A stretch of DNA of 64,000 nt from Afipia massiliensis (GTDB lineage: Bacteria > Pseudomonadota > Alphaproteobacteria > Rhizobiales > Xanthobacteraceae). Both the position numbers and the translations under genes were made by a program. Where the stretch lies: positions 124,001 to 188,000 of the forward strand of contig NZ_LBIA02000001.1 of assembly GCF_001006325.2 (NCBI RefSeq), read 5' to 3'. A model generated the notes under the pieces. The model worked only from the letters and a program-made list of their open reading frames with translations. It ran no database searches and had not been told where the DNA came from. How positions within the stretch are numbered: position 1 is the first letter of the stretch; the number at the start of each line of letters is the position of its first letter. Below, one piece after another: positions 47,350 through 62,781 of this stretch.

Positions 47350-48123
47350 CTAGCGTTCGACGAACGCCTTTTCGATCACGAACTCGCCCGGCTCGCCGTG
47401 ATTGCCTTCGGTAAAGCCCTTGTCGAGCAACAGCGTACGGGTGTCCTGCAACAACGCGGGGCTGCCGCAGATCATGACGCGATCATGTGCAGCCTCGAGT
47501 GGCGCGAGACCCGTATCGTTGAACAGCTTGCCTGATGTCATCAGATCGGTGATCCGGCCGCGATTGCGGAACGGGTCGCGGGTGACCGTCGGATAGTAGA
47601 TCAGCTGGTTGCGCACCAGTTCGCCGATCAAGTCGTCCTTTGGGAGATGCTCATTGATCATCTCGCCATAGGCCAGCTCAGCGACATGGCGGCAACCATG
47701 CAGCAACACGACCTTCTCGAAGCGGTCGTAGGTTTCCGGATCCTTGATGACGCTCAGGAACGGCGCGAGCCCGGTGCCGGTACCGACCAGATAGAGATTT
47801 CGGCCATTCCTCAGATTATCGATGACGAGCGTGCCGGTCGCCTTGCGCCCAACGATGATCTCGTCGCCTTCCTTCAGATGTTGAAGCCGCGAGGTCAACG
47901 GGCCATCTTGCACCTTGATCGAAAAGAACTCGAGTCGGTCCTCATAATTGGCGCTCGCCACGCTGTAGGCGCGCAGCAGCGGCTTCTCCCCGACCTTCAG
48001 GCCGATCATGGTGAACTCGCCGTTGCGGAAGCGGAACGACGGATCGCGTGTGGTGGTGAAGCTGAACAGCGTGTCGGTCCAGTGATGGACGCTGAGGACG
48101 CTTTCCTGATTGAAGTTGCTCAT
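47350..48123 (-). CDS. fpr: Ferredoxin-NADP+ reductase
   Basis: 257 residues, start at 48121-48123 (MSNFNQESVLSVHHWTDTLF). Subclass of bacterial FNRs: FAD motif LLRAYSVASANYED, NADP motif LVGTGTGLAPFLSVI, HGCRHVAELAYGE, and C-terminal GEPGEFVIEKAFVER. It transfers electrons between NADPH and ferredoxin. Divergent from the enamidase gene across 176 bp with a regulon palindrome between them. The 6-hydroxynicotinate reductase family uses ferredoxin, so this may be its electron supply. Confidence 0.93.
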   Translation of the reverse strand: MSNFNQESVLSVHHWTDTLFSFTTTRDPSFRFRNGEFTMIGLKVGEKPLLRAYSVASANYEDRLEFFSIKVQDGPLTSRLQHLKEGDEIIVGRKATGTLVIDNLRNGRNLYLVGTGTGLAPFLSVIKDPETYDRFEKVVLLHGCRHVAELAYGEMINEHLPKDDLIGELVRNQLIYYPTVTRDPFRNRGRITDLMTSGKLFNDTGLAPLEAAHDRVMICGSPALLQDTRTLLLDKGFTEGNHGEPGEFVIEKAFVER

Positions 48124-48199
48124 GTCGCTCGATCCGGTGTGCGGGTCTGATCGCGGGGCAAAATCAAAAAACGCAGAGACAGATTGCCTCGCCAAATTT

Positions 48200-48215
48200 C
48201 GTTTGTATACTAATG
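48200..48215. promoter_or_regulatory. Palindromic operator copy 1 (fpr / ena intergenic)
   Basis: CGTTTGTATACTAATG differs at two positions from the perfect palindrome at 58650-58665. It is central in the fpr-ena gap, about 80 bp from each start codon. Confidence 0.65.
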
Positions 48216-48299
48216 AATAATCCAACTTGATCCCGCCGTCAAGGCGCGCTCAAGTTGGCGCCGACCCGCCGCCAAGCCCCTGAACCAAAGGAATAATCC

Positions 48300-49499
48300 A
48301 TGTCCCACGATGCGCCCCAGGGCACCACCGGCCCCACCAAGCTGGTGATCCGCAACATCGGTCTGATCCTGAGCGGGGCGATGGAAAAGCCTATACTGGA
48401 CGCGGACACCATCATCGCGGAGAACGGCAAGATCACCGCGATCGGGCGGGCAAAGGACATCGACGCGGAAGGCGCGACCACCATCATCGATGCCAATGGC
48501 ACGACAGTGACTCCCGGCCTGATCGACAGTCACGTTCACCCCGTAGCAGGCGACTGGACGCCGCGACAGAATCAGATCGGCTGGATCGACAGTTTTCTGA
48601 ACGGCGGCGTGACCACCATGATCTCGGCTGGCGAGGTTCACATGCCCGGCCGTCCGCGCGACATTGTCGGCGTGAAGGCCATGGCGATCTTTGCCCAGCG
48701 TGCGTTCGACAATCTTCGCCCCGGCGGCGTCAAGGTTCACGCAGGAGCGCCGGTAATCGAGCCGGGAATGACAGAAGAGGACTTCAAGGAACTGGCCGCA
48801 GCGGGCGTCAGGCTGCTCGGCGAAGTCGGCCTCGGCGGCGTCAAGGACGGCCCAACCGCGCGCAAGATGGTGGCATGGGCGCGCAAATACGGCATCCAGA
48901 GCACGATTCACACCGGCGGTCCGTCGATTCCCGGATCCGGCCTGATCGACGCGGACGTCGTGCTGGAAGCCGACACCGACGTCGTCGGGCACATCAATGG
49001 CGGCCACACCGCCCTGCCCGATGGACAGATCCGCTGCATCTGCGAGGGCTGCAAGCGCGGCCTCGAACTGGTTCACAACGGCAACGAGCGCGCCGCGCTC
49101 TATACGCTGCGGATCGCCCGCGAGATGAAGGAACTGAACCGGGTTATTCTCGGCACTGATGCTCCCGCCGGTTCAGGCGTGCAGCCGCTCGGCATCCTGC
49201 GCATGGTGTCGCTGCTGTCGTCGCTCGGCGATGTGCCTGCCGAAATCGCGTTCTGCTTTGCCACCGGCAACACCGCGCGGATGCGCGCGCTGGATTGCGG
49301 CATTATCGAAGTCGGCCGCGCCGCAGACTTCGTCATCATGGACAGAGCGCAGCACTCGGCCGGAAAGAATATTCTGGAGAGTGTTCAGCTCGGCGACCTG
49401 CCCGGCATCGGCATGACCATCATCGACGGTATCGTCCGCACCCAGCGCAGCCGTAACACGCCGCCAGCAACCAACGTGCCGGAGATTGTCGCGCACTAA
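48300..49499 (+). CDS. ena: Enamidase (1,4,5,6-tetrahydro-6-oxonicotinate hydrolase)
   Basis: Amidohydrolase-superfamily enzyme, 399 residues, ribosome site AAAGGA. Metal ligands in order: H78 and H80 (GLIDSHVHP), E175 (LLGEVGLGG), H204 (STIHTGG), H231 (VVGHINGG) and D287 (ILGTDAPAG). It closely resembles the Eubacterium barkeri enamidase as I recall it, including GGVTTMISAG, MPGRPRD, and the C-terminal RSRNTPPA. That enzyme opens tetrahydro-6-oxonicotinate to 2-formylglutarate and ammonium. Context with hnr and nicAB supports the same reaction here. Confidence 0.88.
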   Translation: MSHDAPQGTTGPTKLVIRNIGLILSGAMEKPILDADTIIAENGKITAIGRAKDIDAEGATTIIDANGTTVTPGLIDSHVHPVAGDWTPRQNQIGWIDSFLNGGVTTMISAGEVHMPGRPRDIVGVKAMAIFAQRAFDNLRPGGVKVHAGAPVIEPGMTEEDFKELAAAGVRLLGEVGLGGVKDGPTARKMVAWARKYGIQSTIHTGGPSIPGSGLIDADVVLEADTDVVGHINGGHTALPDGQIRCICEGCKRGLELVHNGNERAALYTLRIAREMKELNRVILGTDAPAGSGVQPLGILRMVSLLSSLGDVPAEIAFCFATGNTARMRALDCGIIEVGRAADFVIMDRAQHSAGKNILESVQLGDLPGIGMTIIDGIVRTQRSRNTPPATNVPEIVAH

Positions 49500-49510
49500 T
49501 CAGCGATAGA

Positions 49511-50047
49511 TCACCTCAGCTTGCTCAGCAGCGTCACAAAAGTTTCGCGCTCCTTTGCATCCAGCGGAGCGAGTGTTTCCTTGGTGATGGCCAGCGCATT
49601 CGGCGCGGCCTTCTCGGCCATTACCTGCCCTGCACGGGTCAGGCTGACCAAAAGCCGGCGGCCGTCCTGCGGGTCGGAACTTGTTTCGGTCAATCCGCGC
49701 GCGGTCAAGCGGTCGATGACACCCTTGATGGTGGCAACATCCATTGCCGTCAAACGACCGAGCTGGTTCTGGGAGCATGGCCCGGTCTCGGTGAGCTTCG
49801 CCAAAGCCGCCCATTGCGTCGGTGTCAGATTGATCCCGATTTCCTTCGCAAAGATCGTCGCGTGGCGTTGCCAGACCTGACGCAGGATGAATCCGATCTG
49901 ATCATCGAGGACATAGGGTGGCTTTGGCCCCTTGGTACTCCGCTTGGGAGCGGCTCCCTTGACCAAGGCTGTTGCTTTACCTTGAGCGCCAGCATTGTTC
50001 AGAGCGGCCTTACTAAGAGCAGCTTTATTCAGAGCAGCTTTGGCCAT
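49511..50047 (-). CDS. MarR family regulator with Ala/Lys-rich N-terminal tail
   Basis: 178 residues, start at 50047 after GGGGGAAAAGA. The first 45 residues are low complexity with a repeated AALNKAALSKAALNN unit and basic APKRSTKG, unlike usual MarR proteins of about 145 residues. The winged helix follows: PTQWAALAKLTETGPCSQNQ, LGRLTAMDVATIKGVIDRLT, and wing SSDPQDGRRLLVSLT. It ends the transporter operon and converges on ena. Probable repressor of the nicotinate genes, acting at the GTTTGTATAC palindromes; ligand perhaps a pathway intermediate. Confidence 0.88.
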   Translation of the reverse strand: MAKAALNKAALSKAALNNAGAQGKATALVKGAAPKRSTKGPKPPYVLDDQIGFILRQVWQRHATIFAKEIGINLTPTQWAALAKLTETGPCSQNQLGRLTAMDVATIKGVIDRLTARGLTETSSDPQDGRRLLVSLTRAGQVMAEKAAPNALAITKETLAPLDAKERETFVTLLSKLR

Positions 50048-50097
50048 TCTTTTCCCCCAGCATTTCTTCTTGCCTGACGGTGTAAGCCGCCCACCAG

Positions 50098-50802
50098 TTA
50101 CACAGCCAGATGTGCATCGCGAATGTCCGGGCGAGCCTCGAGTTCGCTCATCGTGCCGCTGAAGCAGATGCGGCCACGCTCGATGATATAGGCGCGATCC
50201 GATATCAGATTCGCAAAGTGAAGATTCTGCTCGGAGACGACGATGCTGACACCCTCCTTCTTCATCGCAAGGATCGCGCCCACCATCTGCTCGACGATCT
50301 TGGGCGACAATCCTTCGGATGGCTCATCCAGCAATACCAGCGACGGATTGCCCATCAAGGTCCTTGCGATGGTCAGCATCTGTTGCTCGCCGCCGCTCAT
50401 GCGCCCGCCCATGCGGCCGCGCATCTCGCCGAGATTGGGAAACAGGTTGAACAGCTTCTCGCGGGTCCACCGCGGTGCATTCAATCGCGGCGGCTGGCGT
50501 CCAACTTCGAGATTTTCATCAACGGTAAGGTCTGTGAATATCCGCCGCTCTTCCGGCACATAGCCAAGCCCGCTGCGGACAATGGCGTGGGTCGGCTGGT
50601 TCGAAACGTCCTGTCCTTCGAAAACAATCTGGCCTTCGCGCTGCTCGACCAGACCGACAATCGACCTGAACGTCGTCGACTTTCCCGCGCCGTTTCGACC
50701 GAGAAGCGCCACGACTTCTCCATCACCCACCTCAAGCGCAACATCGAACAGGATATGCGCTGGCCCGTAATAGCTGTTCAGTCCCTGCACCGAGAGCTTC
50801 AT
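50098..50802 (-). CDS. Branched-chain-type ABC transporter ATP-binding protein (LivF-like)
   Basis: 234 residues. Walker A LLGRNGAGKSTTFRSIVG, signature MSGGEQQMLTIARTL, Walker B SLVLLDEPSEGLSP. LivF-type because it lacks the longer C-terminal part of LivG. Overlaps livG-like gene by 4 bp. HAAT transporters in catabolic clusters often carry aromatic acids; nicotinate or 6-hydroxynicotinate is the likely substrate here. Confidence 0.92.
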   Translation of the reverse strand: MKLSVQGLNSYYGPAHILFDVALEVGDGEVVALLGRNGAGKSTTFRSIVGLVEQREGQIVFEGQDVSNQPTHAIVRSGLGYVPEERRIFTDLTVDENLEVGRQPPRLNAPRWTREKLFNLFPNLGEMRGRMGGRMSGGEQQMLTIARTLMGNPSLVLLDEPSEGLSPKIVEQMVGAILAMKKEGVSIVVSEQNLHFANLISDRAYIIERGRICFSGTMSELEARPDIRDAHLAV

Positions 50803-51590
50803 GCCGAAGCCCCCTCGCGATGGCGTGCGTCGTACACCAGGCCTTCTCCAAGATAGATTGCGCGGACCTGCGGATTGCGCCGAACTTCCTCCGGCGAGCC
50901 CTCCGCGATCAGCGAGCCGCGGTTGAGCACAAGGATACGGTCGGCATGCTCGAACACCACATCCATGTCGTGCTCGGTGAACAGAACCCCGATCGACTTC
51001 TCCCGCGCGATCCGCGCGGTGAGCTGCATCAGCGCGATACGCTCGCGCGGCGCCATGCCTGCGGTCGGCTCATCCATCAAAAGCAGCTTGGGCTGATTGG
51101 CGAGCGCGATTGCAAGCTCAAGCCGCTTGAGGTCGCCATAGGCGAGTTCTCCACATGGCCGGTCCGCATAGCCACTCATCCCGACGAGATCGAGCAGACG
51201 GTCGGCCTCAGTACGCTCAAATCCAGCGGTCGAGCGCCACATATTAAAAAGCTCGGAATTGTATGACACGAGGGGGACCTGCACGTTTTCACGCACAGTC
51301 ATGGTGGGAAACGTCGCCGTAATCTGGAAGGTGCGCCCGACACCGAGCCGCCAGATGGTACGTGGTTTCTTGCCAACCGTGTCCTGGCCAAGCAGATGGA
51401 TCTTGCCGCTGTCCGGCATGTTCTGGCCGTTGAGCATGTCGAAACACGTGCTCTTGCCAGCGCCGTTCGGACCGATCAGCGCCAGAATTTCGCCCGCCAT
51501 TAGCGAGAACGACACGCCGCGCACGGCGTGAACGCCACCGTAGGATTTGGTCAGGCCTTCGACTGCAAGCAGTGTGGGTGCGACACTCAT
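50799..51590 (-). CDS. Branched-chain-type ABC transporter ATP-binding protein (LivG-like)
   Basis: 263 residues, start at 51588-51590 (MSVAPTLLAVEGLTKSYGGV), overlapping the permease stop by 4 bp. Walker A LIGPNGAGKSTCFDMLNG, LAYGDLKRLELAIALA as signature, Walker B LLLMDEPTAGMAP, VRAIYLGEGL near the end as in LivG. Confidence 0.92.
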   Translation of the reverse strand: MSVAPTLLAVEGLTKSYGGVHAVRGVSFSLMAGEILALIGPNGAGKSTCFDMLNGQNMPDSGKIHLLGQDTVGKKPRTIWRLGVGRTFQITATFPTMTVRENVQVPLVSYNSELFNMWRSTAGFERTEADRLLDLVGMSGYADRPCGELAYGDLKRLELAIALANQPKLLLMDEPTAGMAPRERIALMQLTARIAREKSIGVLFTEHDMDVVFEHADRILVLNRGSLIAEGSPEEVRRNPQVRAIYLGEGLVYDARHREGASA

Positions 51591-53473
51591 TCGGCGGTCT
51601 CGATCCGTGATGCCACAATGGCAGATTTCGACGATTGCGACTGACGCCGTGCGCGAATGGTTTCGATCATACCGACAATGCCCTTCGGGAAGGCAACCAC
51701 GATCAGCACGATAATCGCGCCAAGCACCAGTTTGGACAAATCCGTCTGGCTCACCAGCCAGATGTTGAGGGCCTTGAAGACGATCGCGCCGACCACCGCG
51801 CCTGATACCGTCTCGACGCCGCCGAGCAGCACCATCACCAGCGCATCCACCGAAAGCGAGATGCCCAGACTGTCGGGGAAAACGCTGCCCTTGAGATACG
51901 CGAACAACGCACCGGCTACACCCGCGACGGTGCCTGCGATCACGAACGCGGTCCATTGAATGCGTTTGCCGTCGATACCGATCGCTTCGCTCCGCAGGAT
52001 GGAATCCCGTGTCGCGCGCAAAGCGTAACCGAACGGCGAGAACACGATGATGCGAAGCACCACAACTGCCAGCGTCGCGATGCCCAGCGACAGCCAGTAG
52101 AAACTGGCAGGCCCTGCTGCCCACGCCGCGGGCCAGACTCCCAATATTCCATTATCACCGCCGGTCACGCTCACCCACTGGAACGCAATCGACCAGACGA
52201 TTTGTGCAAAGGCCAGCGTCAGCATCGCAAAATAGACGCCTGACAGTTGAACCGCGAAAAATCCGAAAATCGCCGCACCGAACAGCCCAAAAAGCGGCCC
52301 GAGCAGCAGACACGCAATCATCGGCAGGCCCGCGGCCTTGGCGAAGAATGCGACGCCATAGGCCCCAAGGCCGAAGTAGGCCGCATGGCCAAACGACGCG
52401 AGGCCGCCGACCGACATCAGGAAATGCAGACTGGCCGCGAAGACCACAAAGATCGCGATCTCCGCGCCGACGTTGAGTGCGTAGTTGCCGCCAAACAGCG
52501 GCAACGCTGCTGCCACAATCAACACAGCCAGCGTCGCAAAACGTTCGTTCATCGTGAGAGGCCGCCACGGACGAACCGTAAGTCCTGGCGTCTTGCGCGC
52601 CGGCGCTTCCGGCTTCCCGAACAGACCCCACGGACGAACGATGAGGACCGCAGCCATGACAAGAAAGACGAGAATGATCGATATCTTTGGGAATATCAGG
52701 ATTCCGAACGCATTGAGTTCGGAGACCAGAACGGCTGCAACGAACGCACCAATGATGCTGCCGAGGCCGCCGATCACGACCACCACGAAAACATCAACGA
52801 TGATGCGCAGATCCATCGCATGATGAACAGCGTCACGCGGGATTTGCAACGCGCCACCGAGTGCGGCCAGAAACACACCAAGCGCGAACACGCTGGTGAA
52901 AAGCCACTTCTGGTTGACACCGAGCGCGGCCACCATGTCGCGATCCTGCGTCGCCGCGCGAACCAGAACGCCCCAGCGCGTGCGCCGGAACAACAGCCAC
53001 AAGGCGCCCAGCACCACGGGACTGAGCACAATCAGAAACAGGTCATAGGTTGGAATGTTCTGGCCGAAGAAGTCCACCGCACCGCGAAATCCGGGCGCAC
53101 GCCGGCCCACCAGATCGTCCGGCCCCCAGATCAGGACTACGATATCCTGAACCATCAGGGTCAGGCCGAAGGTGGCGAGAAGCTGGAACAGTTCCGGCGA
53201 CTTATAAATCCGCCGCAGCAGCACCATTTCGACCAGCACGCCCAGAACCGCAACGACAAGCGCCGCAACGACAATGCCGCCCCAGAATCCCAGCGCGCCG
53301 GACAGCCGCTCAGTCAGGGTGAACGCAACATAGGCGCCCAGCATATAGAACGCGCCATGCGCGAAATTCACGATCCGCGTCACGCCGAAGATAATCGACA
53401 GGCCCGATGCCACGAGGAACAGCGACGCCGCGCTCGCAAGACCGGTCAGGAACTGAACAAAGTAGAAGCTCAT
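51587..53473 (-). CDS. Fused LivH-LivM ABC transporter permease
   Basis: 628 residues that join both permeases. Residues about 1-290 are LivH-like (IIFGVTRIVNFAHGAFYMLG, LGVNQKWLFTSVFALGVFLA, VIGGLGSIIGAFVAAVL). Residues about 310-610 are LivM-like (LASFGHAAYFGLGAYGVAFF, AIGIDGKRIQWTAFVIAGTV, LGGVETVSGAVVGAIVF). Most such systems have separate genes. Between the binding protein and this gene is a strong hairpin. Confidence 0.92.
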   Translation of the reverse strand: MSFYFVQFLTGLASAASLFLVASGLSIIFGVTRIVNFAHGAFYMLGAYVAFTLTERLSGALGFWGGIVVAALVVAVLGVLVEMVLLRRIYKSPELFQLLATFGLTLMVQDIVVLIWGPDDLVGRRAPGFRGAVDFFGQNIPTYDLFLIVLSPVVLGALWLLFRRTRWGVLVRAATQDRDMVAALGVNQKWLFTSVFALGVFLAALGGALQIPRDAVHHAMDLRIIVDVFVVVVIGGLGSIIGAFVAAVLVSELNAFGILIFPKISIILVFLVMAAVLIVRPWGLFGKPEAPARKTPGLTVRPWRPLTMNERFATLAVLIVAAALPLFGGNYALNVGAEIAIFVVFAASLHFLMSVGGLASFGHAAYFGLGAYGVAFFAKAAGLPMIACLLLGPLFGLFGAAIFGFFAVQLSGVYFAMLTLAFAQIVWSIAFQWVSVTGGDNGILGVWPAAWAAGPASFYWLSLGIATLAVVVLRIIVFSPFGYALRATRDSILRSEAIGIDGKRIQWTAFVIAGTVAGVAGALFAYLKGSVFPDSLGISLSVDALVMVLLGGVETVSGAVVGAIVFKALNIWLVSQTDLSKLVLGAIIVLIVVAFPKGIVGMIETIRARRQSQSSKSAIVASRIETAE

Positions 53474-53496
53474 ATGCGATCCAGGGCTGGAAAATG

Positions 53497-53521
53497 CCGC
53501 GGGCGCATCGCGCGCCCGCGG
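53497..53521 (-). terminator. Intercistronic hairpin after the binding-protein gene
   Basis: CCGCGGGCG and CGCCCGCGG form a perfect 9-bp stem with a 7-base loop, followed on the minus strand by CATTTTCC. It probably attenuates transcription so that the binding protein is made in excess of the membrane parts. Confidence 0.6.
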
Positions 53522-53530
53522 TCGTCAACA

Positions 53531-54751
53531 TCAATCCTTCGGGCGCAGCTTCTCGACCTCCGCATCGCTCGGCAGGAAGTCCTCGCCCTTGCGATACACG
53601 GAGTCGACCATTACGCCCTTGCCGTCCTTCAGCGCTGTCTTGCCGACATAGGCACCGAGCGTCGATTGATGATCATTCTTGCGGAAGGTGATCTGACCGA
53701 ACGGCGACGACATCGACAGGCCTTCCGCCGCCGCGATCATCTTTTCCGGATCAGTCGAATTGGCCTTGGTGAGAATCGCCGCTGCGGCCTTGATCGTCTG
53801 ATAACCGACGATGGAGCCCAGCCGCGGATAGTCGTTGAACTTGCCCTGATAGGCTTTCAGGAACGCATCATGTTCGGGCGTCTTGATGCTGTACCAGGGA
53901 TAACCGGTGACGATCCAGCCTGAGGGAGTTTCTTCCTTCAGCGGATCCAGATATTCCGGCTCGCCGGTGAGGAAGCTGACCACCGAACGATCCTTAAACA
54001 GACCGCGGGTGTTGCCCTCGCGAACGAACTTCACGAGATCCGCACCAAAGGTCACGTTGAGAATGGCCTCCGGATTTGCGTTCGCCAGCGCCTGCACGAT
54101 CGGGCCTGCATCGATCTTGCCCTGCGGCGGCCACTGCTCGTCAACCCACTGGATGTCGGGCCGCTTCTCCGACAGCAGCTTCTTGAAAATGCCAACTGCG
54201 GACTGGCCGTACTCGTAGTTCGGCGCGATGGTTGCCCAGCGCTTTGCTGGCAGCTTGGCGGCTTCATCGACCAGCATCGCCGCCTGCATGTAGTTCGATG
54301 GCCGCAGGCGGAACGTATAACGATTGCCCTTTGACCAGGTGATCGCGTCGGTCAAAGGCTCGGCAGCCAGGAAGAACACCTTCTTCTGCTTGGCAAAGTC
54401 GCTCACCGCGAGCCCGATGTTGGACAGGAACGTGCCGGTCAGCATGACCACGTTCTCGTTCGAGACCAGTTCGTTCGCGGCGGTCTGCGCGTCAGCGGGT
54501 TTACCGCTATCGTCCTTGGACACGACAACCAGCTTCTTGCCGTTGATTCCGCCTGCCGCGTTGACCTCCTCGACCGCGAGTTGCCAGCCTTTGCGATAAG
54601 GCTCGGTGAACGCCGGCAATAGCGAATAGCTGTTGATCTCGCCAATCTTGATTTCGCCGCTCTGCGCCATGGCGGATGTCGCCATGCTGCCGAACACCAC
54701 GCAGAGACTTGTGCCTAACAGGCCTTTCAAAAGAAATTTGCGTCGTTGCAT
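53531..54751 (-). CDS. Branched-chain-type ABC transporter substrate-binding protein
   Basis: 406 residues, ribosome site GGAGG, Tat/Sec-like signal (MQRRKFLLKGLLGTSLCVVF, cleavage near SAMAQ). Leu/Ile/Val-binding family: GEIKIGEINSYSLLPAFTEP, ELVSNENVVMLTGTFLSNIG, YGQSAVGIFKKLLSEKRPDI. Ligand inferred from context to be nicotinate or 6-hydroxynicotinate. Confidence 0.9.
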   Translation of the reverse strand: MQRRKFLLKGLLGTSLCVVFGSMATSAMAQSGEIKIGEINSYSLLPAFTEPYRKGWQLAVEEVNAAGGINGKKLVVVSKDDSGKPADAQTAANELVSNENVVMLTGTFLSNIGLAVSDFAKQKKVFFLAAEPLTDAITWSKGNRYTFRLRPSNYMQAAMLVDEAAKLPAKRWATIAPNYEYGQSAVGIFKKLLSEKRPDIQWVDEQWPPQGKIDAGPIVQALANANPEAILNVTFGADLVKFVREGNTRGLFKDRSVVSFLTGEPEYLDPLKEETPSGWIVTGYPWYSIKTPEHDAFLKAYQGKFNDYPRLGSIVGYQTIKAAAAILTKANSTDPEKMIAAAEGLSMSSPFGQITFRKNDHQSTLGAYVGKTALKDGKGVMVDSVYRKGEDFLPSDAEVEKLRPKD

Positions 54752-54768
54752 CCCAGACCTCCAATGTT

Positions 54769-54788: not shown

Positions 54789-54862
54789 GTGACATCCGTC
54801 CATCCCTTCTCTCACTCGGGGATGGTCCGGCAATTCCTCTCGCACGTTCAGGAATCAGACAG

Positions 54863-55447
54863 CTACCGAAGGCCATCCTCACCCTTGATTTCTTCAATCG
54901 TCAGGCCGCCGACACGCGGCAGCGGACGCCCGCTATCGGTCACGGCAACCGCAACCATGATTTCGTTGGCGCGCGGCGCATCGTTGATCTGCACTTCCAT
55001 GCCGTCGAAATGACTGCGCACGAACGCCGCGTCCTTGTGACCCAGCGGAATATCAAGCACTGTTCCCAAACCTCCACGCTTCTTGGATGACGGTATCAGC
55101 GCAGCACCCTTGCCCAGCACCTTGCGCACCGGCGCGCCCATTTTGGGATGCAAGATTGCTGCCGCATGCTCGAGTTCGCCATTCTCGCCGACCGCCGCCG
55201 CCTTGCCGTAGCTTTGCGCCTTGCTGCCTTCGATGCCCAGTGCCGCGACCGCCCGGGCGGCAAGCAATTCGCCCAGTTCCTCGCCAATGGCGATGAGGGG
55301 CGCGAGATCATCGACAAATTTTCCGGAAAATGGATTATCGATCACCGCGATCGCCGCCGCGCGGCGGGTCGGCGGCGAGACATTCCGGCCACCCTCCATC
55401 AAAGTCTCCTCGACGACGATAACGATCTTGCGAATGACGGCACTCAT
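54863..55447 (-). CDS. PF06684 (DUF1185, amino acid synthesis family) protein, paralogue 2
   Basis: 194 residues, no signal peptide. Shared with its neighbour: VIDNPFSGKFVDDLAPLI, AQSYGKAAAVGENGELEHAA, AFVRSHFDGMEVQINDAPRA and the common C-terminus EIKGEDGLR. About 50 percent similar by eye to the upstream copy, with which it overlaps by 4 bp. Members often occur near hydrolases of nitrogen heterocycles and LIV transporters; the reaction is unknown. Here it may act on 2-formylglutarate or the ring-opened amide, which is speculation. Confidence 0.82.
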   Translation of the reverse strand: MSAVIRKIVIVVEETLMEGGRNVSPPTRRAAAIAVIDNPFSGKFVDDLAPLIAIGEELGELLAARAVAALGIEGSKAQSYGKAAAVGENGELEHAAAILHPKMGAPVRKVLGKGAALIPSSKKRGGLGTVLDIPLGHKDAAFVRSHFDGMEVQINDAPRANEIMVAVAVTDSGRPLPRVGGLTIEEIKGEDGLR

Positions 55448-56028
55448 CGCAGTCCATCCTCCCCCTTGATCTCGCTGGCCTTGAGACCACCGACCCGGGC
55501 ATGAATCCGCGAACCGGTGGTCATCACAAGCGCCAAGAGCAATTCATCAGCGCGCGGGGCATCGGAGATGCCGACTTCCATGGCATCAAAATGGGATCGC
55601 ACATAAGACGCGTTGATGTGTGTCACCGGCACGTCAAGCCGGGCACCCGGCCCCCCGACCTTCTTGGCAGACGGCACGATAGCCTTCGCCTCGCCGAGAA
55701 TTTCCCGCATCGCGTAGCCACCGGGCACATGCCACAACGCGCCGTGTTCCAGTTCACCGGCGGAGCCGATGATCGCTCCCTTGCCATATCCCTGAATGAC
55801 GGCAGGATCGCCACCGAGCGCCTTCAACAATGCGCCCGCCATCGCGATTCCAAGCGGCGTGAGATCGTCCATGAAGCCGGCGATATCTTCGACATAACGC
55901 CCGGCAAACGGATTACGGATCACGCATAGGATCGCGCCGCGGCGTAACGGTCGCACCGCCGGCTTTCCACCCTCATGGAAAATCTCTTCAATCAGCGTGA
56001 CGCGTTTGCGGATCGCAATCTCAGACAT
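55444..56028 (-). CDS. PF06684 (DUF1185, amino acid synthesis family) protein, paralogue 1
   Basis: 194 residues, the same length as the downstream copy. Motifs: VIRNPFAGRYVEDIAGFMDD, VIQGYGKGAIIGSAGELEHG, SYVRSHFDAMEVGISDAPRA, EIKGEDGLR at the end. It overlaps the UPF0280 gene by 8 bp and the second copy by 4 bp. The pair probably forms a heteromer or divides two steps. No catalytic residues are known to me. Confidence 0.82.
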   Translation of the reverse strand: MSEIAIRKRVTLIEEIFHEGGKPAVRPLRRGAILCVIRNPFAGRYVEDIAGFMDDLTPLGIAMAGALLKALGGDPAVIQGYGKGAIIGSAGELEHGALWHVPGGYAMREILGEAKAIVPSAKKVGGPGARLDVPVTHINASYVRSHFDAMEVGISDAPRADELLLALVMTTGSRIHARVGGLKASEIKGEDGLR

Positions 56029-56929
56029 ACATCAAACTTTCGGTTCGGACCGTCGAGCGCTGTAACGGCGCAACACCATCGGCGATCCTCAGAGCGACAA
56101 CGCACGTCTCGCCCTGCAGATGAAGTGCTGCACCATCGATCAATCCCGCAGCAAGCAACAGCCGCGCACTGTCCGCGCCAGCCTCGAGAGCGACGGCAAT
56201 ATCGTCTGGCGGCAAATGGCCGACATCCCGGGTGACGAGACGCGCACCGAGATCGCTGTCGAGCTGAACCTCAGCCGCCGGGCAACGGGCGACGGCGGGA
56301 TGCCCCGGCAGATCAACCGAATTAGCAATAATGGTTGCGGCGGCATCGGCCTGCGCAGCGGTTCGCGCCAGAACCGTGACTGCGTCAGCAATACCGAGTG
56401 AGAAACTGCGCCCACGCCATCCGCTGGTCGCGACACCTCGTGTCGGATCGCTCGCCGCAATGACCGTCGTCCCGATCAAGGCCGGTGTATCGGGCCGGTT
56501 CACCAGACCAACTCTGAAATGCTCGTCATTGGCAAGATGCAGCGCGATATCGCCGCCGTTGTTGACATAGGCACGATCAAGATCGGCCGCTTGCGTCATG
56601 GCGCCAAGAATTTCCTCGGCGACGGAACCGGCGACCGCCGCCATCGGCGTGATGAAATGATCCGTGGCAAACGGCGCGACCGCGTCATGCATGCGACGTG
56701 CGACAACGCCGTTCAAGGAGCAGACGTCAGGCCGCGCAGCCTTGCGCAGTTCCAGCAACTCTTCGCAAAGTTCGTCGAGGAGTCCGGTGAATTGCCGAAT
56801 GGAAGCTTCATATGCCGCACGAACAGCAGCCCCCGCGCCACGCGCCTCCACAATCAGATCGATGGGACCATCCTGCAGGTGAAGCCGCCTGCCGTCCGCC
56901 AGCCATCCAATCTGCGGGAGCCGTGTCAT
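56021..56929 (-). CDS. UPF0280 family protein with ApbE-like fold
   Basis: 302 residues. The features AYVNNGGDIALHL, GVATSGWRGRSFSLGIADAV and PMAAVAGSVAEEIL are those of UPF0280, a relative of ApbE flavin transferases. Its start overlaps the hnr stop by 4 bp, so it is coupled to the reductase. A role in attaching or inserting flavin into Hnr is inferred. A C-terminal extension with two Cys-poor segments (about 230-300) is present. Confidence 0.8.
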   Translation of the reverse strand: MTRLPQIGWLADGRRLHLQDGPIDLIVEARGAGAAVRAAYEASIRQFTGLLDELCEELLELRKAARPDVCSLNGVVARRMHDAVAPFATDHFITPMAAVAGSVAEEILGAMTQAADLDRAYVNNGGDIALHLANDEHFRVGLVNRPDTPALIGTTVIAASDPTRGVATSGWRGRSFSLGIADAVTVLARTAAQADAAATIIANSVDLPGHPAVARCPAAEVQLDSDLGARLVTRDVGHLPPDDIAVALEAGADSARLLLAAGLIDGAALHLQGETCVVALRIADGVAPLQRSTVRTESLMYV

Positions 56930-58395
56930 GGGCGCGATCTCGGCTCAGAAGTTTGTCGCGGCAATTGACGGATTTCCGTGCTGTCCTTCAATGACGCCAA
57001 TGGCCGCACGTGATCCATGTGACCGCCGAGCGCGGCATAATCCGAAAGCCGCAGGGTGAACTCGATGGGCGCGACCAGCGCAGGTGTCGGCACATAGCCA
57101 AAGGCTCCCTCCGGAACCTGAGTCACGTCGACCATGAAAGTGATGCCGCCGCCCGGCCAGACATAGACCGGCGCACCGCCGCAGGTTACCGACGTCAGCG
57201 CATCCTTCACGGATCGCGTGAGCCGCACGGGGTTGTCGGTGACGCCCGCCCTCAGCGATCCGCCCGCGCCGCCCATGAACAGCACCGTGCACAGGGCCGG
57301 TTCGCAGTTTTCCTGAATCCGCTCAACCGATAGCTTGAGGTCGGCCGGCATCTCTTTCTCGACGGGTTTCAGCGCCTCGTCGAGTTCGAAATAAGCGGCG
57401 TGTTCGCCGGTGGTGCTCACCATCATCATCCGCATGCCGGGATGCGCGGTCTTGGGATCGAACGGACCCAGCACCGAAAGAGGATCGGAGATGTTGGTCC
57501 CGCCCCAGCCGGTGCCGGGTTCGGCGACCTGGAAATAGCGCCCGGGTGTCGAGCGCCGGCCCTTCATCTTGATACCGGTGTCGGGAATATCGAGAAGCTT
57601 GCCCGCCTGATGCTCCGACAGGACGCCGGTGATGTGATCGTCGACCACGACCACTTCATCAACCTTGCCATGCCACTGCTTGGCGAACATGCCGATTGTC
57701 GCAGAGCCGCAGCCGACGCGCATGCGCTCTTCGGGAACGCCGTTGACGATCGGCGGGTAACCAGCCTGCACCACCACCGTCGCGCCACCGTCGATTGTGA
57801 GTTCGACAGGCTTTCCGTTGGACAGATCCATCAGCGCGTCACAAGTGATACGCCCCTCTTTCTTCGATCCCCCGGTCAGGTGATGCACGCCGCCGAGCGA
57901 CAGCATCTGCGAGCCATATTCTCCGGTCGTGACGTGCCCCACCGCCTCGCCCTGCACGCGCACCGTCGCGGTTTCAGGCCCGAGATAGCGATCGGTATCG
58001 ATCTTCACCTTGACGCCGCAGTAGCTGAAGATGCCCTCGGTCACCACCGTGACCATATCGACACCGTCTATCTCGGAAGAAACGATGAATGGCGCAGGCT
58101 TGTAATCGGGATAGGTCGTGCCGGCACCGATGGCCGTGACGAAAACGCCAGGCTCATGAACGATCTTGCCGTCCCAATCGCCACCGGCCTGAAACGGAAC
58201 CAGCCGACCGCCATGCGAAACCGTGCGCTCGAGCACGACATGCGGATCGACGCGCACCAGTTCGCCATTGTTGTTTGCATAGCGATCGCACGCACCCGCG
58301 GCGCCGGGCTTGATGTAACACATCACCGGGCACGCATCGCAGCGGATCTTGTCCGCGCTGCCGGGCGCTGTAACGGAGGTCACCTCGGTTTGCAT
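56926..58395 (-). CDS. hnr: 6-hydroxynicotinate reductase family protein
   Basis: 489 residues, start at 58393-58395 (MQTEVTSVTAPGSADKIRCD). N-terminal iron-sulfur motif with C19, C22, C26 and C36 (RCDACPVMCYIKPGAAGACD), closely matching the E. barkeri 6-hydroxynicotinate reductase as I recall it. The body has GIFSYCGVKVKIDTDRYLGP, SLGGVHHLTGGSKKEGRITC and RVGCGSATIGMFAKQWHGKV. That enzyme uses reduced ferredoxin to make 1,4,5,6-tetrahydro-6-oxonicotinate. Head of a nine-gene leftward operon, divergent from nicAB. Family members in aerobes have not, to my knowledge, been purified. Confidence 0.85.
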   Translation of the reverse strand: MQTEVTSVTAPGSADKIRCDACPVMCYIKPGAAGACDRYANNNGELVRVDPHVVLERTVSHGGRLVPFQAGGDWDGKIVHEPGVFVTAIGAGTTYPDYKPAPFIVSSEIDGVDMVTVVTEGIFSYCGVKVKIDTDRYLGPETATVRVQGEAVGHVTTGEYGSQMLSLGGVHHLTGGSKKEGRITCDALMDLSNGKPVELTIDGGATVVVQAGYPPIVNGVPEERMRVGCGSATIGMFAKQWHGKVDEVVVVDDHITGVLSEHQAGKLLDIPDTGIKMKGRRSTPGRYFQVAEPGTGWGGTNISDPLSVLGPFDPKTAHPGMRMMMVSTTGEHAAYFELDEALKPVEKEMPADLKLSVERIQENCEPALCTVLFMGGAGGSLRAGVTDNPVRLTRSVKDALTSVTCGGAPVYVWPGGGITFMVDVTQVPEGAFGYVPTPALVAPIEFTLRLSDYAALGGHMDHVRPLASLKDSTEIRQLPRQTSEPRSRP

Positions 58396-58479
58396 GACCA
58401 AACTCGCGTGCAAGCCAGCGAACTGATGCGCGGCGCCAATGCCGCGAGGATTAGTTCAGTCAGTCCGCATTGGCATTTT

Positions 58480-58493
58480 GTTCGTATACGAAC
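58480..58493. promoter_or_regulatory. Palindromic operator copy 2 (hnr side)
   Basis: GTTCGTATACGAAC, a perfect 14-bp palindrome 85 bp upstream of the hnr ATG. It shares the GTATAC core and outer GTT/AAC with copies 1 and 3. Confidence 0.7.
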
Positions 58494-58649
58494 GATGTTG
58501 CGCGCAGTCCCGAAAGCTGTCAAGCGCCGTCGCGCGTAAAAACCGGAACTGCCGAATAAAAACTCAGTTGCCTACTTTGCGTGTTCAGAAATCATGCAAT
58601 GCATCATCGCACGGGACACGCGACACTCTGGGCGCATCATGCGCTTGCA

Positions 58650-58665
58650 CGTTTGTATACAAACG
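58650..58665. promoter_or_regulatory. Palindromic operator copy 3 (nicA side)
   Basis: CGTTTGTATACAAACG, a perfect 16-bp palindrome 58 bp upstream of the nicA ATG. Palindromes of this length are typical of MarR-family operators. Confidence 0.75.
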
Positions 58666-58723
58666 GTATCGTCGCAGGCAGACATTGCCGACCTTTTGCA
58701 GCGCAGCAGATCGGACCGTGACG

Positions 58724-59212
58724 ATGAATATGACGCAGCAACCGATCCGCCTGACAGTGAACGGCAGGATCCACGATGTCGGCGCCGCGCCCGACACCCC
58801 GCTGCTTTACGTGTTGCACAACGATCTTGAATTGAACGGCCCCAAGTATGGCTGCGGGCTCGGCGAATGCGGCGCATGTACCGTCATCATCGACGGTGTG
58901 GCAGCCCGCTCCTGCGTGATACCGGTCAGCGGCTGTGTGCAGCGAGACATACTGACGCTCGAAGGCCTCGGATCGCGCGACCATCCCGACCCCGTGCAGC
59001 ACGCCTTCATCGAGGAACAGGCCGCGCAATGCGGTTACTGCCTTAACGGCATGATCATGAGCACGAAAGCTCTTCTCATGCAGAACCCGCGCCCCTCGGA
59101 AACGGAGGTGCTCCAGGCCTTGCGATACAACCTGTGTAGGTGTGGCGCGCACGTCGAGATCCTACGCGCGGTCATGCGTGCTGCAGGTCATGCCGTCGAA
59201 GGACTCGAGTAA
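58724..59212 (+). CDS. nicA: Nicotinate dehydrogenase small (2Fe-2S) subunit
   Basis: 162 residues, start at 58724 (MNMTQQPIRLTVNGRIHDVG). Two [2Fe-2S] clusters: plant-type CGLGECGACTVIIDG and the C-terminal cluster QCGYCLNGMI with NLCRCGAHVEI. It passes electrons from the molybdenum centre in the large subunit. Its TAA stop overlaps the nicB ATG (TAATG). The length equals the P. putida NicA class. Other Mo hydroxylases such as isoquinoline oxidoreductase have similar subunits, but the hnr/ena context favours nicotinate. Confidence 0.9.
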   Translation: MNMTQQPIRLTVNGRIHDVGAAPDTPLLYVLHNDLELNGPKYGCGLGECGACTVIIDGVAARSCVIPVSGCVQRDILTLEGLGSRDHPDPVQHAFIEEQAAQCGYCLNGMIMSTKALLMQNPRPSETEVLQALRYNLCRCGAHVEILRAVMRAAGHAVEGLE

Positions 59213-62200
59213 TGGTGGCGGATTCCCAGACAGATCGAGAACAACTTCCTTCCGGATCGCTGTCCGTCGTTCGCCCGGCATCTTCCGGCAACACTGGATC
59301 GGCTTTCGAGACCTTCATCAAGATCACCGCGAACGGGGTTATCACTGCCTTCAATGGTCATGTCGATCTCGGGACCGGCATCCGCACGGCGCTTGGACAG
59401 ATCGTCGCGGAAGAACTGGACGTCTCGTTCGCGCGTGTCATCGTCGTACTGGGCGACACTTCGCTCGTTCCCAATCAAGGGGCGACCATCGCCAGCGAAA
59501 CCATCCAGATCACTGCGGTGCCACTGCGTAAAGCGGCCGCGCAAGCACGTCACTTTCTGATCGCACGCGCCGCGCAGAGGCTTGAGCTACCGGAAAGTGA
59601 ACTGTCGGTAGAGGACGGCCTGATCCGGGGTCACGATAACCGCAGCATCAGTTACGGCGAACTGATCGGAGACGAAACCATCCGGCTCGATCTCGCCGAT
59701 GATGCTCCGGTGAAAGCGGTCGAATCCTACAAAATCGTCGGACAATCTACGCCGCGCGTCGATCTCCCGGCCAAGGCAACCGGTGAACTGGTCTACGTGC
59801 ATGATGTGCGCGTTCCCGGCATGCTGCATGGGCGCGTGGTGCGTCCGCCCTACGCCGGTGTCGATGCCGGAAGTTTCGTCGGAACGAGTCTGATTGCCGT
59901 CGACGAGTCGTCCGTTCGCGATATTCCCGGCATGGTGTCGGTTGTGCAGGTCGGCGACTTCGTCGGTGTCGTCGCCGAACGCGAGGAAAACGCGGTCAAG
60001 GCGGCCGCTCAACTCAAGGTGACGTGGAAACCGACACCGACGCTGCCCAATCTGAAAGATATCGAAACGGCGCTCCGCGCTAATCCGAGTACGCCACGCA
60101 CATTGCTCGACAAGGGCGACGTGGATGCCGCCATCGCGGATGCCGCAAAGCCGATGCAACGAACCTACATCTGGCCCTACCAGATGCACGGATCAATCGG
60201 ACCTTCGTGTTCTGTGGCAGATGTTCGGGAGGGATTCGCGCGGGTATGGTCCGGCACGCAGAATCCGCACATCCTGCGATCCGACCTCGCACTGCTTCTC
60301 GCACTGCCGGAAACTCAGATCGACGTGATCCGACTGGAGGCCGCCGGTTGCTACGGCCGCAACTGCGCCGATGACGTCTCCGCCGACGCGGTGTTGCTGT
60401 CGCGCGCAGTCGGCAGGCCGGTGCGCGTACAGCTAACCCGTGAGCAGGAACACGCGTGGGAGCCCAAAGGCACAGCGCAACTGATGGACGTCAACGGCGG
60501 CCTGCATGCCGATGGCAGCGTCGCGGGCTATGACTTCGCCACGCGCTATCCCTCGAACGGAGCACCGACGCTGGCGCTGCTTCTGACCGGCATCGTCCCG
60601 CCTGTTCCGGCGGTCTTTGAGATGGGCGACCGCACCGCGATCCCGCCTTATGACTACGATGCGATGCGGGTGACCGCCCACGATATGCCGCCCATCGTGC
60701 GGGCGTCATGGTTTCGCGGCGTCTCGGCATTGCCCAACACGTTTGCGCACGAATCCTACATTGACGAACTCGCGGCCGAGGCTGGCGTCGATCCGATTGA
60801 ATACCGCCTGCGCTATCTGAAGGATCCGCGTGCAGTCGATCTGGTCAAGGCCGTCGCCAAGCGCGCCGACTGGACTCCTCGCCCGCTCTGGAAGGAGCAG
60901 GAAGCCGAGGGCGATGTGGTGCGTGGACGCGGCTTCGCTTACGCGCTCTATGTCCACAGCAAATTCCCCGGCTACGGCGCTGCATGGTCAGCCTGGATTG
61001 CGGACGTCGCGGTCAACAAATCGACCGGCGATGTGAGCGTGACGCGCGTCGTTGCCGGGCAGGATTCCGGACTGATGATCAACCCGGACGGCGTGCGCCA
61101 TCAGATCCACGGCAACGTCATCCAGTCGACCAGCCGCGCGCTGATGGAAGAAGTCTCGTTCGATCGTGCCGCTGTGGCCAGCCGGGAATGGGGTACCTAC
61201 CCGATCATCACATTCCCGGACATTCCCAAGATCGATGTGTTGATGCTGCCACGGCAAGATCAGCCGCCGCTCGGCGTCGGTGAATCCGCGTCGGTCCCGA
61301 GCGCCGCGGCTATCGCAAACGCAATTTTCGATGCAACCGGTGTGCGCTTCCGCGAACCGCCGTTCACGCCCGAGCGCATTCTTGCGGGATTGCGCGGCGA
61401 TGCTCCCGCACCGCAGGCCTTGTTGCCGGCGGCCAGTTTCAAGCCGCAGGAACGAATTCCGGATACGCCAAGTCCGTTCTTTAAACGCCGCAGTACGCTC
61501 GCAGGTATCGCCGCAGTCTGCACAGCGGCTGTCGGCATCGCCGCAGCGGTGCTGCCGTGGCGATCAATTGCACCCATCGCGCGGCCGGATGTATCGACGT
61601 ATTCCGCGGCGACCATTGCCCGCGGCCAGCAACTCGCGGCGCTCGGCAACTGCGCCGGCTGCCATACCGACATAAGCGGGATCGCCAATGCGGGCGGACG
61701 GGCGCTCGAGACACCGTTTGGCATCGTTTACAGCACCAACATCACCCCCGATGTCGAGACCGGTATCGGGGCGTGGTCATACCCGGCCTTCGAGCGCTCG
61801 ATGCGCGAAGGCATCCATCGCGACGGCCGGCATCTCTACCCGGCATTTCCCTACAATCACTTTGCCAAGACAACCGATGCAGATTTGCAGGCGCTCTACG
61901 CTTATCTGATGGCGCAGGAGCCGGTGCACGCCGTCAACCGCGAAACTGCTCTGGCATTCCCTTTCAGCCTTCGTCCGCTGCTGGCAGGCTGGAACGCGCT
62001 GTTTCACGAACCGGCCCTCTTCAAGGCAAATCCCGCGAAATCAACCGTCTGGAATCGCGGCGCTTATCTGGTCGAGAGTCTCGGTCATTGTGGAGCTTGC
62101 CATACGCCGAGGAATGCATTGGGCGCGGAAAGAACAGCCAAAGCCTATCTGGCCGGCGGCGTCGCGGAAGGCTGGGAAGCGCCGCCACTGACGTCCCTGT

Positions 62201-62781
62201 CGCACGCGCCGATCCCGTGGAGCGAGGACGAACTCTTCGCCTATCTGCGAACGGGCATCTCCCGCTTCCATGGTGTTGCCGCAGGGCCTATGGCGCCGAT
62301 CGTAAGAGAGCTGGCAGCCGTGCCTGACAGCGACATTCGCGCCATGGCGGTTTATCTCGCCTCTTTCAACGAGACCACAGAAACGCCAGCGGCGCAGGAA
62401 ACGCTGGCAACGCGGCTGGAAACCATAACGAGCGTGAAGGCCGTCTCTGCCTCAGCTCTTGGCGCGCGCATCTATGATGGCGCTTGCGCGGTCTGCCATC
62501 AGATCGGCGGGCCTGTTCTGTTTGGCAGCAAACCCTCACTGGCGCTGAATAGCAACTTGCACAGCACCATGCCCGATAACCTTATTCAGGTCATTCTCCA
62601 CGGCATCGAGCAGCCGGTCTCCAGCGATCTCGGCTATATGCCTGCCTTCAAGAACAGCCTCAATGATGAACAGGTCTTGGAGCTGGTGTCCTACCTCAGG
62701 CAGCAGTTCGCTCCGGACAAGGCGCCCTGGACCGACGTCGCCGCCGCGATCGGCCGGGTCCGGCACGCCGCCAGACCATAA
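59212..62781 (+). CDS. nicB: Nicotinate dehydrogenase large subunit: molybdopterin domain fused to triheme cytochrome c
   Basis: 1189 residues, close to the length of P. putida NicB. Start ATG at 59212 overlapping the nicA stop. Residues about 20-750 form the xanthine-oxidase-family Mo domain (HVDLGTGIRTALGQIVAEEL, VWSGTQNPHILRSDLALLLA, RASWFRGVSALPNTFAHESY, GVGESASVPSAAAIANAIF with the catalytic Glu). A single membrane helix follows at about 765-785 (TLAGIAAVCTAAVGIAAAVL). Then three heme motifs: CAGCH (C814), CGACH (C960), CAVCH (C1092). It hydroxylates nicotinate at C6 with water and sends electrons to the respiratory chain. Confidence 0.9.
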   Translation: MVADSQTDREQLPSGSLSVVRPASSGNTGSAFETFIKITANGVITAFNGHVDLGTGIRTALGQIVAEELDVSFARVIVVLGDTSLVPNQGATIASETIQITAVPLRKAAAQARHFLIARAAQRLELPESELSVEDGLIRGHDNRSISYGELIGDETIRLDLADDAPVKAVESYKIVGQSTPRVDLPAKATGELVYVHDVRVPGMLHGRVVRPPYAGVDAGSFVGTSLIAVDESSVRDIPGMVSVVQVGDFVGVVAEREENAVKAAAQLKVTWKPTPTLPNLKDIETALRANPSTPRTLLDKGDVDAAIADAAKPMQRTYIWPYQMHGSIGPSCSVADVREGFARVWSGTQNPHILRSDLALLLALPETQIDVIRLEAAGCYGRNCADDVSADAVLLSRAVGRPVRVQLTREQEHAWEPKGTAQLMDVNGGLHADGSVAGYDFATRYPSNGAPTLALLLTGIVPPVPAVFEMGDRTAIPPYDYDAMRVTAHDMPPIVRASWFRGVSALPNTFAHESYIDELAAEAGVDPIEYRLRYLKDPRAVDLVKAVAKRADWTPRPLWKEQEAEGDVVRGRGFAYALYVHSKFPGYGAAWSAWIADVAVNKSTGDVSVTRVVAGQDSGLMINPDGVRHQIHGNVIQSTSRALMEEVSFDRAAVASREWGTYPIITFPDIPKIDVLMLPRQDQPPLGVGESASVPSAAAIANAIFDATGVRFREPPFTPERILAGLRGDAPAPQALLPAASFKPQERIPDTPSPFFKRRSTLAGIAAVCTAAVGIAAAVLPWRSIAPIARPDVSTYSAATIARGQQLAALGNCAGCHTDISGIANAGGRALETPFGIVYSTNITPDVETGIGAWSYPAFERSMREGIHRDGRHLYPAFPYNHFAKTTDADLQALYAYLMAQEPVHAVNRETALAFPFSLRPLLAGWNALFHEPALFKANPAKSTVWNRGAYLVESLGHCGACHTPRNALGAERTAKAYLAGGVAEGWEAPPLTSLSHAPIPWSEDELFAYLRTGISRFHGVAAGPMAPIVRELAAVPDSDIRAMAVYLASFNETTETPAAQETLATRLETITSVKAVSASALGARIYDGACAVCHQIGGPVLFGSKPSLALNSNLHSTMPDNLIQVILHGIEQPVSSDLGYMPAFKNSLNDEQVLELVSYLRQQFAPDKAPWTDVAAAIGRVRHAARP

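Follow-up and report, generated by a model that had tools for sequence, protein, structure and literature searches.

Predicted roles of UPF0280 and DUF1185 proteins in a putative nicotinate ring-reduction locus of Afipia massiliensis

The locus and its proposed pathway

Positions 47350 to 62781 of the window analysed here—a 64,000-nucleotide stretch of Afipia massiliensis contig NZ_LBIA02000001.1 (positions 124,001 to 188,000)—hold a gene cluster that very probably encodes nicotinate catabolism by ring reduction, to judge from the kinship of its enzymes. A two-subunit hydroxylase (nicA, nicB) is divergent from hnr, the gene of 6-hydroxynicotinate reductase, and the enamidase gene ena lies in the same locus. 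Between hnr and ena, besides a Liv-type ATP-binding cassette (ABC) transporter, stand a UPF0280 gene, two DUF1185 genes and a gene for a MarR-family regulator; an earlier, sequence-only reading of this DNA was silent on all four. Their distribution among genomes indicates that UPF0280 almost certainly works for Hnr, and that one of the DUF1185 proteins, DUF1185-A, can with high probability be paired with Ena. Two families of obscure function—UPF0280, and DUF1185, whose structures are filed under amino-acid metabolism—would thus gain specific, testable predictions. The explanation taken whole, that is, the pathway together with the roles of UPF0280, DUF1185 and MarR, appears likely. We computed homology, synteny, co-occurrence and a common palindrome, and from these we infer each reaction, the path of the electrons and which regulator goes with the palindrome.

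In the proposed pathway, NicAB would turn nicotinate into 6-hydroxynicotinate and hand electrons on to the respiratory chain through its cytochrome c domains. Hnr would reduce 6-hydroxynicotinate to 1,4,5,6-tetrahydro-6-oxonicotinate, fed by ferredoxin kept reduced by Fpr, and Ena would hydrolyse the ring amide to 2-(aminomethylene)glutarate and on to 2-formylglutarate and ammonia. The ApbE-like UPF0280 protein would install the flavin of Hnr, reportedly a covalent one. DUF1185-A would complete the hydrolysis of the enamine or imine released by Ena, and DUF1185-B may act in a similar capacity, in closer connection with Hnr. The MarR protein would act on the palindrome GTTYGTATACRAAC to control the divergent promoters.

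The hydroxylase genes, hnr and ena are where the sequence-only reading had put them, and coordinates and strands agree with its claim that hnr is divergent from nicAB. The 2Fe-2S subunit NicA (58724..59212, plus strand; Fer2 and Fer2_2 domains) has the claimed 162 residues, and the molybdopterin subunit NicB (59212..62781, plus strand; molybdopterin-binding and cytochrome c domains) has 1189 residues and three CxxCH motifs. By architecture this is the layout of a NicAB nicotinate dehydrogenase, a 2Fe-2S subunit with a molybdenum subunit fused to cytochrome c; we take it to resemble Pseudomonas NicAB, presumably likewise a small 2Fe-2S subunit and a large molybdenum subunit with three haem motifs. 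The Pseudomonas route oxygenates the product of this step, whereas the window's product would be reduced. The ena gene (48300..49499, plus strand), with predicted tetrahydro-oxonicotinate hydrolysis, encodes an amidohydrolase that matches the solved Eubacterium barkeri enamidase 2vun over residues 13-395 in a PDB search (E 1.2e-111). It is 47% identical to the ena product of E. barkeri VPI 5359, whose locus (L077) was obtained, along with ten others, by scanning genome contigs with the 2vun sequence. Over 454 residues the product of hnr (56926..58413, minus strand) shows 42% identity to that of L077; it has many invariant residues in common with it and carries the four-cysteine motif CxxCxxxCx9C. 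No Pfam or NCBIfam family matches Hnr, and of two PDB searches one returned four matches that we took as chance (best E 0.046) and the other none. Since both enzymes have a genuine kinship with their E. barkeri counterparts, ring reduction and hydrolysis joined to a cytochrome-linked hydroxylase in a respiring bacterium, as predicted earlier, appears to be the best reading.

The locus, correctly recognised by the sequence-only reading, belongs to a cluster type already in the literature. In its passages on the subject, PMC3511419 (2012) used the E. barkeri genes to find this cluster in Azorhizobium caulinodans, Bradyrhizobium japonicum, Rhodopseudomonas palustris and strain SG-6C; these passages neither name nor explain the cluster's unknown proteins. 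Fetched members of the window's family have the same layout around hnr. They come from an order draw of 199 genomes, in which 20 of the 47 other Hnr genomes, those of highest identity, were fetched; NicA and NicB stand beside hnr in seven of the 20 (L097-L101, L111 and L114). Six other genomes of this draw belong to the window's family, five of them with Hnr, and in all five fetched same-family loci nicB-nicA is divergent from hnr, followed by UPF0280, one DUF1185 gene (type A), the transporter and marR. Next come ena and fpr in three of the five; L097 and L098 have no ena in the 2-3 kb after marR that their stretches cover, which weighs against the pathway as proposed. The earlier view of the route as genetically little described does not stand beside the published cluster (PMC3511419, same passages) and a layout common to five loci out of five, and the hybrid of NicAB with Hnr and Ena is ruled out as a novelty on the same grounds. 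With the locus type published, the surprise it had aroused was unwarranted.

The E. barkeri cluster in L077, which serves nicotinate fermentation, likewise has a molybdenum hydroxylase, hnr, UPF0280, ena and DUF1185. The window differs from it in its cytochrome-type NicAB, an Hnr without a ferredoxin domain and two DUF1185 genes, and has none of the L077 downstream genes in linkage. The two halves of the locus, which the earlier proposal assigned to different lifestyles, are not cleanly separate, since L077 has a molybdenum hydroxylase too. The first three genes reportedly occur in nine Proteobacteria, as the abstract of Alhapel 2006 is said to state.

A wider sample shows how the module varies. 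In the class draw, an even sample of 289 alphaproteobacterial genomes, Hnr was found in 44, which gives the question some breadth. From the other 43 of these genomes, 44 stretches around hnr were obtained, some shortened by contig ends. A fused 2Fe-2S/molybdenum hydroxylase (cluster c0) is present in 39 of these stretches and an FAD-subunit gene (flavin adenine dinucleotide; cluster c5) in 20; a cytochrome-type NicB stands beside hnr in none of them (L037 has one 33% partial match). In the wider Alphaproteobacteria draw, nicAB is the less usual part of the module. A gene for a VanA-like Rieske oxygenase lies in or near the Hnr loci L037, L039, L042, L043, L047, L052, L053 and L066.

The electron supply of Hnr also appears to differ between lineages. 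An N-terminal 2[4Fe-4S] ferredoxin domain, with eight extra cysteines, is present in all six non-alphaproteobacterial rows of one Hnr alignment, the E. barkeri type included, and in none of the 18 alphaproteobacterial rows of another, each of which starts shortly ahead of the second four-cysteine motif. This suggests that the Hnr of respiring cells, without the domain, may take its electrons from outside. Reduced ferredoxin, supplied via Fpr or a 2-oxoacid:ferredoxin oxidoreductase, would fit. The ferredoxin-NADP reductase-like gene fpr (47350..48156, minus strand; frame open upstream to 48225) matches PRK10926 with 152 bits, below the cut-off of 390; it is divergent from ena in the window, and adjoins hnr divergently in genomes G355 and G420. 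It weighs against ferredoxin as the donor that no ferredoxin gene turned up, and no search aimed at ferredoxin was made. Genes of 2-oxoacid:ferredoxin oxidoreductase stand near hnr in L047, L057, L058 and L069, in the first three together with an adrenodoxin-reductase-like gene. The hnr match of L073 (G028:C1:2969808-2971189) comes in two overlapping pieces, possibly a frameshift or sequencing error.

UPF0280 and the flavin of Hnr

The UPF0280 gene (56021..56929, minus strand; PRK04334.1-2) follows hnr through the genomes with few exceptions. UPF0280 is found in the same 44 genomes of the class draw as Hnr and, weakly, in two more (E 7e-4 and 1e-4); the order draw has Hnr in 48 genomes, UPF0280 in 47 and both in 46, and in a phylum draw of 289 genomes the same 21 have both. 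With each genome of these three overlapping draws counted once, UPF0280 occurs in 98 of 100 Hnr genomes. As for the exceptions, the hnr match of G405 stops 184 bases short of a contig end, and that of G468 is an 82-residue Hnr fragment reaching base 2 of its contig. UPF0280 without Hnr occurs in one genome, G470 (240 contigs). In G355 and G420, where hnr is relocated beside fpr, UPF0280 still stands with the hydroxylase and DUF1185 genes. Nine of the 11 non-alphaproteobacterial loci, that of E. barkeri included, have UPF0280 directly downstream of hnr; of the other two, L087 has nothing but a 25% amidohydrolase match, and L081 contains only the first ~300 Hnr residues, in a frame that stops near the contig end.

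Profile comparison points to ApbE as a distant relative. Against an ApbE profile of ten proteins, UPF0280 aligns with an hhalign probability of 94.9% (E 4.4e-8) over 97 columns, which include the GGD, TSG and ADxxAT stretches; the same profile gave 0.1% against Hnr as a control. By this alignment, UPF0280 keeps the catalytic serine of ApbE (in TSG) and the metal-binding aspartate and threonine (in ADxxAT). It differs from ApbE (PF02424) in having no HIIDPxTG motif, only ~97 alignable columns and, by eye, no signal sequence. Its predicted structure has a mean predicted local distance difference test score (pLDDT) of 89.9, and a PDB profile search returned 2o34 (uncharacterised; E 2.5e-12) and no ApbE entry. 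The distant kinship makes UPF0280 a likely candidate for a dedicated flavin-installing protein of Hnr. The link to Hnr is near certain; with the serine and aspartate positions of ApbE kept and the histidine absent, we put the chance that UPF0280 acts on Hnr by flavin attachment at about even.

Several points weigh against such attachment. UPF0280 has no PF02424 match, nor one to any Pfam family; its alignments contain no invariant histidine to match the general-base histidine of the ApbE motif HxxDPxTG; and a covalent flavin is reportedly described, in Alhapel 2006, for the Hnr of E. barkeri only. The consulted section of PMC12052999 gives the catalytic triad of ApbE as aspartate, serine and histidine, and an excerpt of PMC5655446 describes the ApbE variant H257G as inactive, with flavin transfer abolished; the former, a review, speaks in the same section of decreased activity on loss of the histidine. 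The flavinylation survey PMC8238504, searched by term, mentions neither UPF0280 nor nicotinate, and our literature search found no paper mentioning 'UPF0280'.

Instead of attaching the flavin, UPF0280 may be an FAD pyrophosphatase, a flavin chaperone or another maturation factor of Hnr, for instance for an iron-sulfur cluster. We regard this as possible, at rather less than an even chance: the lack of the general-base histidine speaks for it, and the kept serine of TSG and aspartate and threonine of ADxxAT would suit FAD binding or hydrolysis. Set against it, the sole cofactor oddity reported for Hnr is said to be the covalent flavin, and a search for PF02424 ApbE proteins found none in the window genome, whereas nine of the 41 genomes searched have one.

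DUF1185, Ena and the opening of the ring

The two DUF1185 genes of the window (PF06684) are paralogues from different clades: DUF1185-A (54863..55447, minus strand) and DUF1185-B (55444..56028, minus strand), the latter assigned by its Pfam match and the tree. The tree of 84 sequences, midpoint-rooted and with long branches flagged by the program, divides into clade A (47 rows) and clade B (37 rows), each with support 100/100. Besides DUF1185-A, clade A takes in eight Bacillota genes, among them the ena-linked gene of E. barkeri, the genes of loci L122-L124 and SPO0826 (2qtp); BB2672 (3byq) is attached to clade B by a long branch. The two structures described in PMC2954203 are thus divided between the types, 2qtp with the window's DUF1185-A and 3byq with DUF1185-B.

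DUF1185-A adjoins ena in E. barkeri (L077), and its distribution follows that of Ena. At E <=1e-60, Ena occurs in 22 of the 289 class-draw genomes; of the 44 Hnr genomes, 18 have a true Ena (at least 69% identity) and 26 have none (G104 shows a 41% match only). Searched genome-wide, DUF1185-A-like genes (at least 58% identity) are present in 18 of 18 Ena-bearing Hnr genomes versus three of the 26 Ena-less ones (p 1.3e-9, a value that ignores shared ancestry and rests on a 58% limit chosen after seeing the list). Outside the Hnr genomes, G082 has Ena, no Hnr match and an A-like DUF1185 gene; in G082 and G197 this gene lies far from ena or on a different contig. The three Ena-less genomes, G080, G195 and G104, with A-like genes of 58-68% identity, are evidence against the pairing. 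In L122-L124 a DUF1185 gene adjoins a distant Ena-like gene (40-43% identity; the pairs lie at L122:8867-10701, L123:8848-10672 and L124:8783-10630) with no hnr in the stretch. By eye, these loci also hold oxygenase-like or aldolase-pathway-like genes, perhaps of other ring-opening routes. The window genome has a third, more distant DUF1185 gene (G000:C1:1063965-1064495), 40% identical to DUF1185-A.

Ena is expected to release an enamine, and DUF1185-A is therefore proposed to finish its hydrolysis; we place this role, that of an enamine or imine hydrolase, slightly below even. RidA/YjgF proteins are enamine and imine deaminases. The DUF1185 structures 3byq and 2qtp have a chorismate-mutase-like fold, according to the structural account in PMC2954203, a fold class named YjgF-like in the relevant part of PMC4051656. 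In that account the authors of the structures proposed amino-acid metabolism, and the word 'nicotinate' is absent from the paper; our literature search found no paper linking DUF1185 to nicotinate. A consideration on the other side is that PMC9304392 describes the Ena of E. barkeri as bifunctional, so that a second enamine hydrolase is not strictly required.

The residues K82, S120 and K123 are found in all 47 A-type rows and in all B-type rows, save S120 and K123 of 3byq. Their near-invariance makes a Ser-Lys mechanism possible, by which the DUF1185 proteins would not hydrolyse enamines but would serve as hydrolases or tautomerases with the ring or 2-formylglutarate as substrate. Excerpts of PMC4051656 and PMC3758960 ascribe a YjgF/chorismate-mutase-like fold and Ser-Lys dyads to the ring-opening amidases AtzD/CAH, and HcdD belongs to a dihydrocoumarin pathway (PMC7913881). 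We nevertheless find this role doubtful: BB2672 (3byq) lacks S120 and K123, the ring would already have been opened by Ena, and the DUF1185 PDB search, in which only 2qtp and 3byq were credible, shows no sequence similarity to solved AtzD- or RidA-like members or to AtzD/CAH amidases.

A third role, that of a decarboxylase converting 2-formylglutarate to glutarate semialdehyde en route to glutarate, is quite unlikely for DUF1185-A, since the same gene adjoins ena in E. barkeri, whose pathway reportedly does not decarboxylate 2-formylglutarate (Alhapel 2006 is said to state this). It was dropped as lead reading because E. barkeri has the gene too. It would agree with TgnF, a homologue according to PMC7913881 and said there to stimulate succinate semialdehyde oxidation, and with the Azorhizobium route, said in the passages of PMC3511419 to pass through glutarate.

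The fate of 2-formylglutarate in the window bears on the same step. Glutarate is likely its product, on the strength of the Azorhizobium work that these passages of PMC3511419 cite (Kitts 1992 for the glutarate route). The window was said earlier to contain no E. barkeri-type downstream genes. This is right for the genes in L077, which ends before the E. barkeri pathway genes do, so that the comparison covers the genes within it, the mutase not among them; it is wrong for one generic, unlinked 3-hydroxyisobutyrate-dehydrogenase-family gene (30418-31308), 17 kb off and 36% like that of E. barkeri. The succinate-glutarate CoA-transferase family gives 12 matches in the window genome, none above the cut-off, and the neighbours of the best (L140) do not resemble a glutarate locus. 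One relative, G210, carries ~7 kb from hnr a gene for an acyl-CoA dehydrogenase and another that resembles the succinate-glutarate CoA-transferase family (508 bits against a cut-off of 750).

Loci without Ena may open the reduced ring in another manner. HyuA is found in the hnr stretch of 16 of the 26 Ena-less genomes (13 of them with HyuB) versus none of the 18 Ena-bearing ones. The 16 loci, all from genomes without true Ena, are L038, L040, L043, L044, L050, L055-L059, L062, L063, L065, L068, L069 and L073. The Ena-bearing G197 has a 42% HyuA match 9 kb from ena, away from hnr (L118), and ten of the 26 Ena-less genomes, some on short contigs, show neither Ena nor HyuA in the hnr stretch. We hypothesise that HyuAB may be a substitute ring opener in the Ena-less loci, in which case a second, ATP-dependent way to open the reduced ring may exist.

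With 26 of the 44 Hnr genomes lacking true Ena, the module may serve more than one setting, and the cluster could degrade some other substituted pyridine, such as a related pyridine carboxylate, by NicAB-like and Hnr-like enzymes of shifted specificity. NicB-like proteins are moreover common, presumably with many substrates: 1109 plasmid records match at whatever strength, and in 265 of these the match spans over 80% of the query. We consider such a shift very unlikely, because all three E. barkeri-type steps stand together, with Ena and Hnr at the identities given above, and because strain SG-6C, reported with this cluster in the passages of PMC3511419, degrades nicotinate and 6-hydroxynicotinate.

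Catabolism of nicotinate thus remains the preferred reading of the locus. A more specific joint reading takes UPF0280 as a flavin transferase of a new, histidine-less ApbE branch dedicated to Hnr, DUF1185-A as a new enamine/imine (or Ser-Lys) hydrolase with the chorismate-mutase-like fold, partnering Ena-type amidohydrolases, and HyuAB as an ATP-dependent opener of the tetrahydro-oxonicotinate ring in Ena-less lineages. It is unlikely to hold in every part; if it did, two families of obscure function would belong to the pathway in fermenters and aerobes alike.

Regulation and neighbouring genes

From hnr to DUF1185-A the genes overlap by 4 bases (hnr/UPF0280), 8 bases (UPF0280/DUF1185-B) and 4 bases (DUF1185-B/DUF1185-A), which suggests a single operon, followed by the binding-protein and Liv-type ABC genes. 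The divergent region between hnr and nicA measures 310 bases and contains two palindromes, GTTCGTATACGAAC (58480..58493) ahead of hnr and GTTTGTATACAAAC (58651..58664) ahead of nicA. A weaker, operator-like site between fpr and ena (48201..48214) agrees with the common form GTTYGTATACRAAC at 12 of 14 positions. Searched as a 16-base palindrome with at most three mismatches, the window has these three sites only, where 0.47 are expected; one of 100 shuffles reached three.

The palindrome recurs in related loci. The window together with 74 loci (75 sequences, 1.37 Mb) gave 33 matches at 13 or more of 14 positions, compared with 0.4 in each base-shuffled set, although kinship among the loci means that they are not independent samples. 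The matches fall in 27 of the 75 sequences, the other 48 having none. Of the 33, 29 stand outside any matched gene yet no more than 400 bases from one, among them a site 47 bases before hyuA in L065. The common palindrome suggests that these genes may form one regulon, and we infer that its binder is the MarR-family regulator (49511..50047, minus strand; domain match), which is convergent with ena and has marR relatives in many related loci.

The transporter genes follow DUF1185-A on the minus strand: a periplasmic binding protein of an ABC transporter with putative nicotinate uptake (53531..54751; domain match), an apparently fused LivH-LivM permease of 628 residues (51587..53473) and the LivG-type (50799..51590) and LivF-type (50098..50802) ABC ATPases, these last three named by inspection. 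The query of the fused permease also matches the transporter in many related loci. Outside the cluster, a Na/Pi cotransporter-related gene (45661-47310, plus strand) belongs to cluster c28, also present in the Hnr stretches L055 and L063. Right after nicB, a nicotinate phosphoribosyltransferase gene (62994-64000, plus strand; PRK05321, 388 bits versus a cut-off of 379) runs off the end of the window, so that a gene for salvage of this vitamin adjoins the genes for its breakdown.

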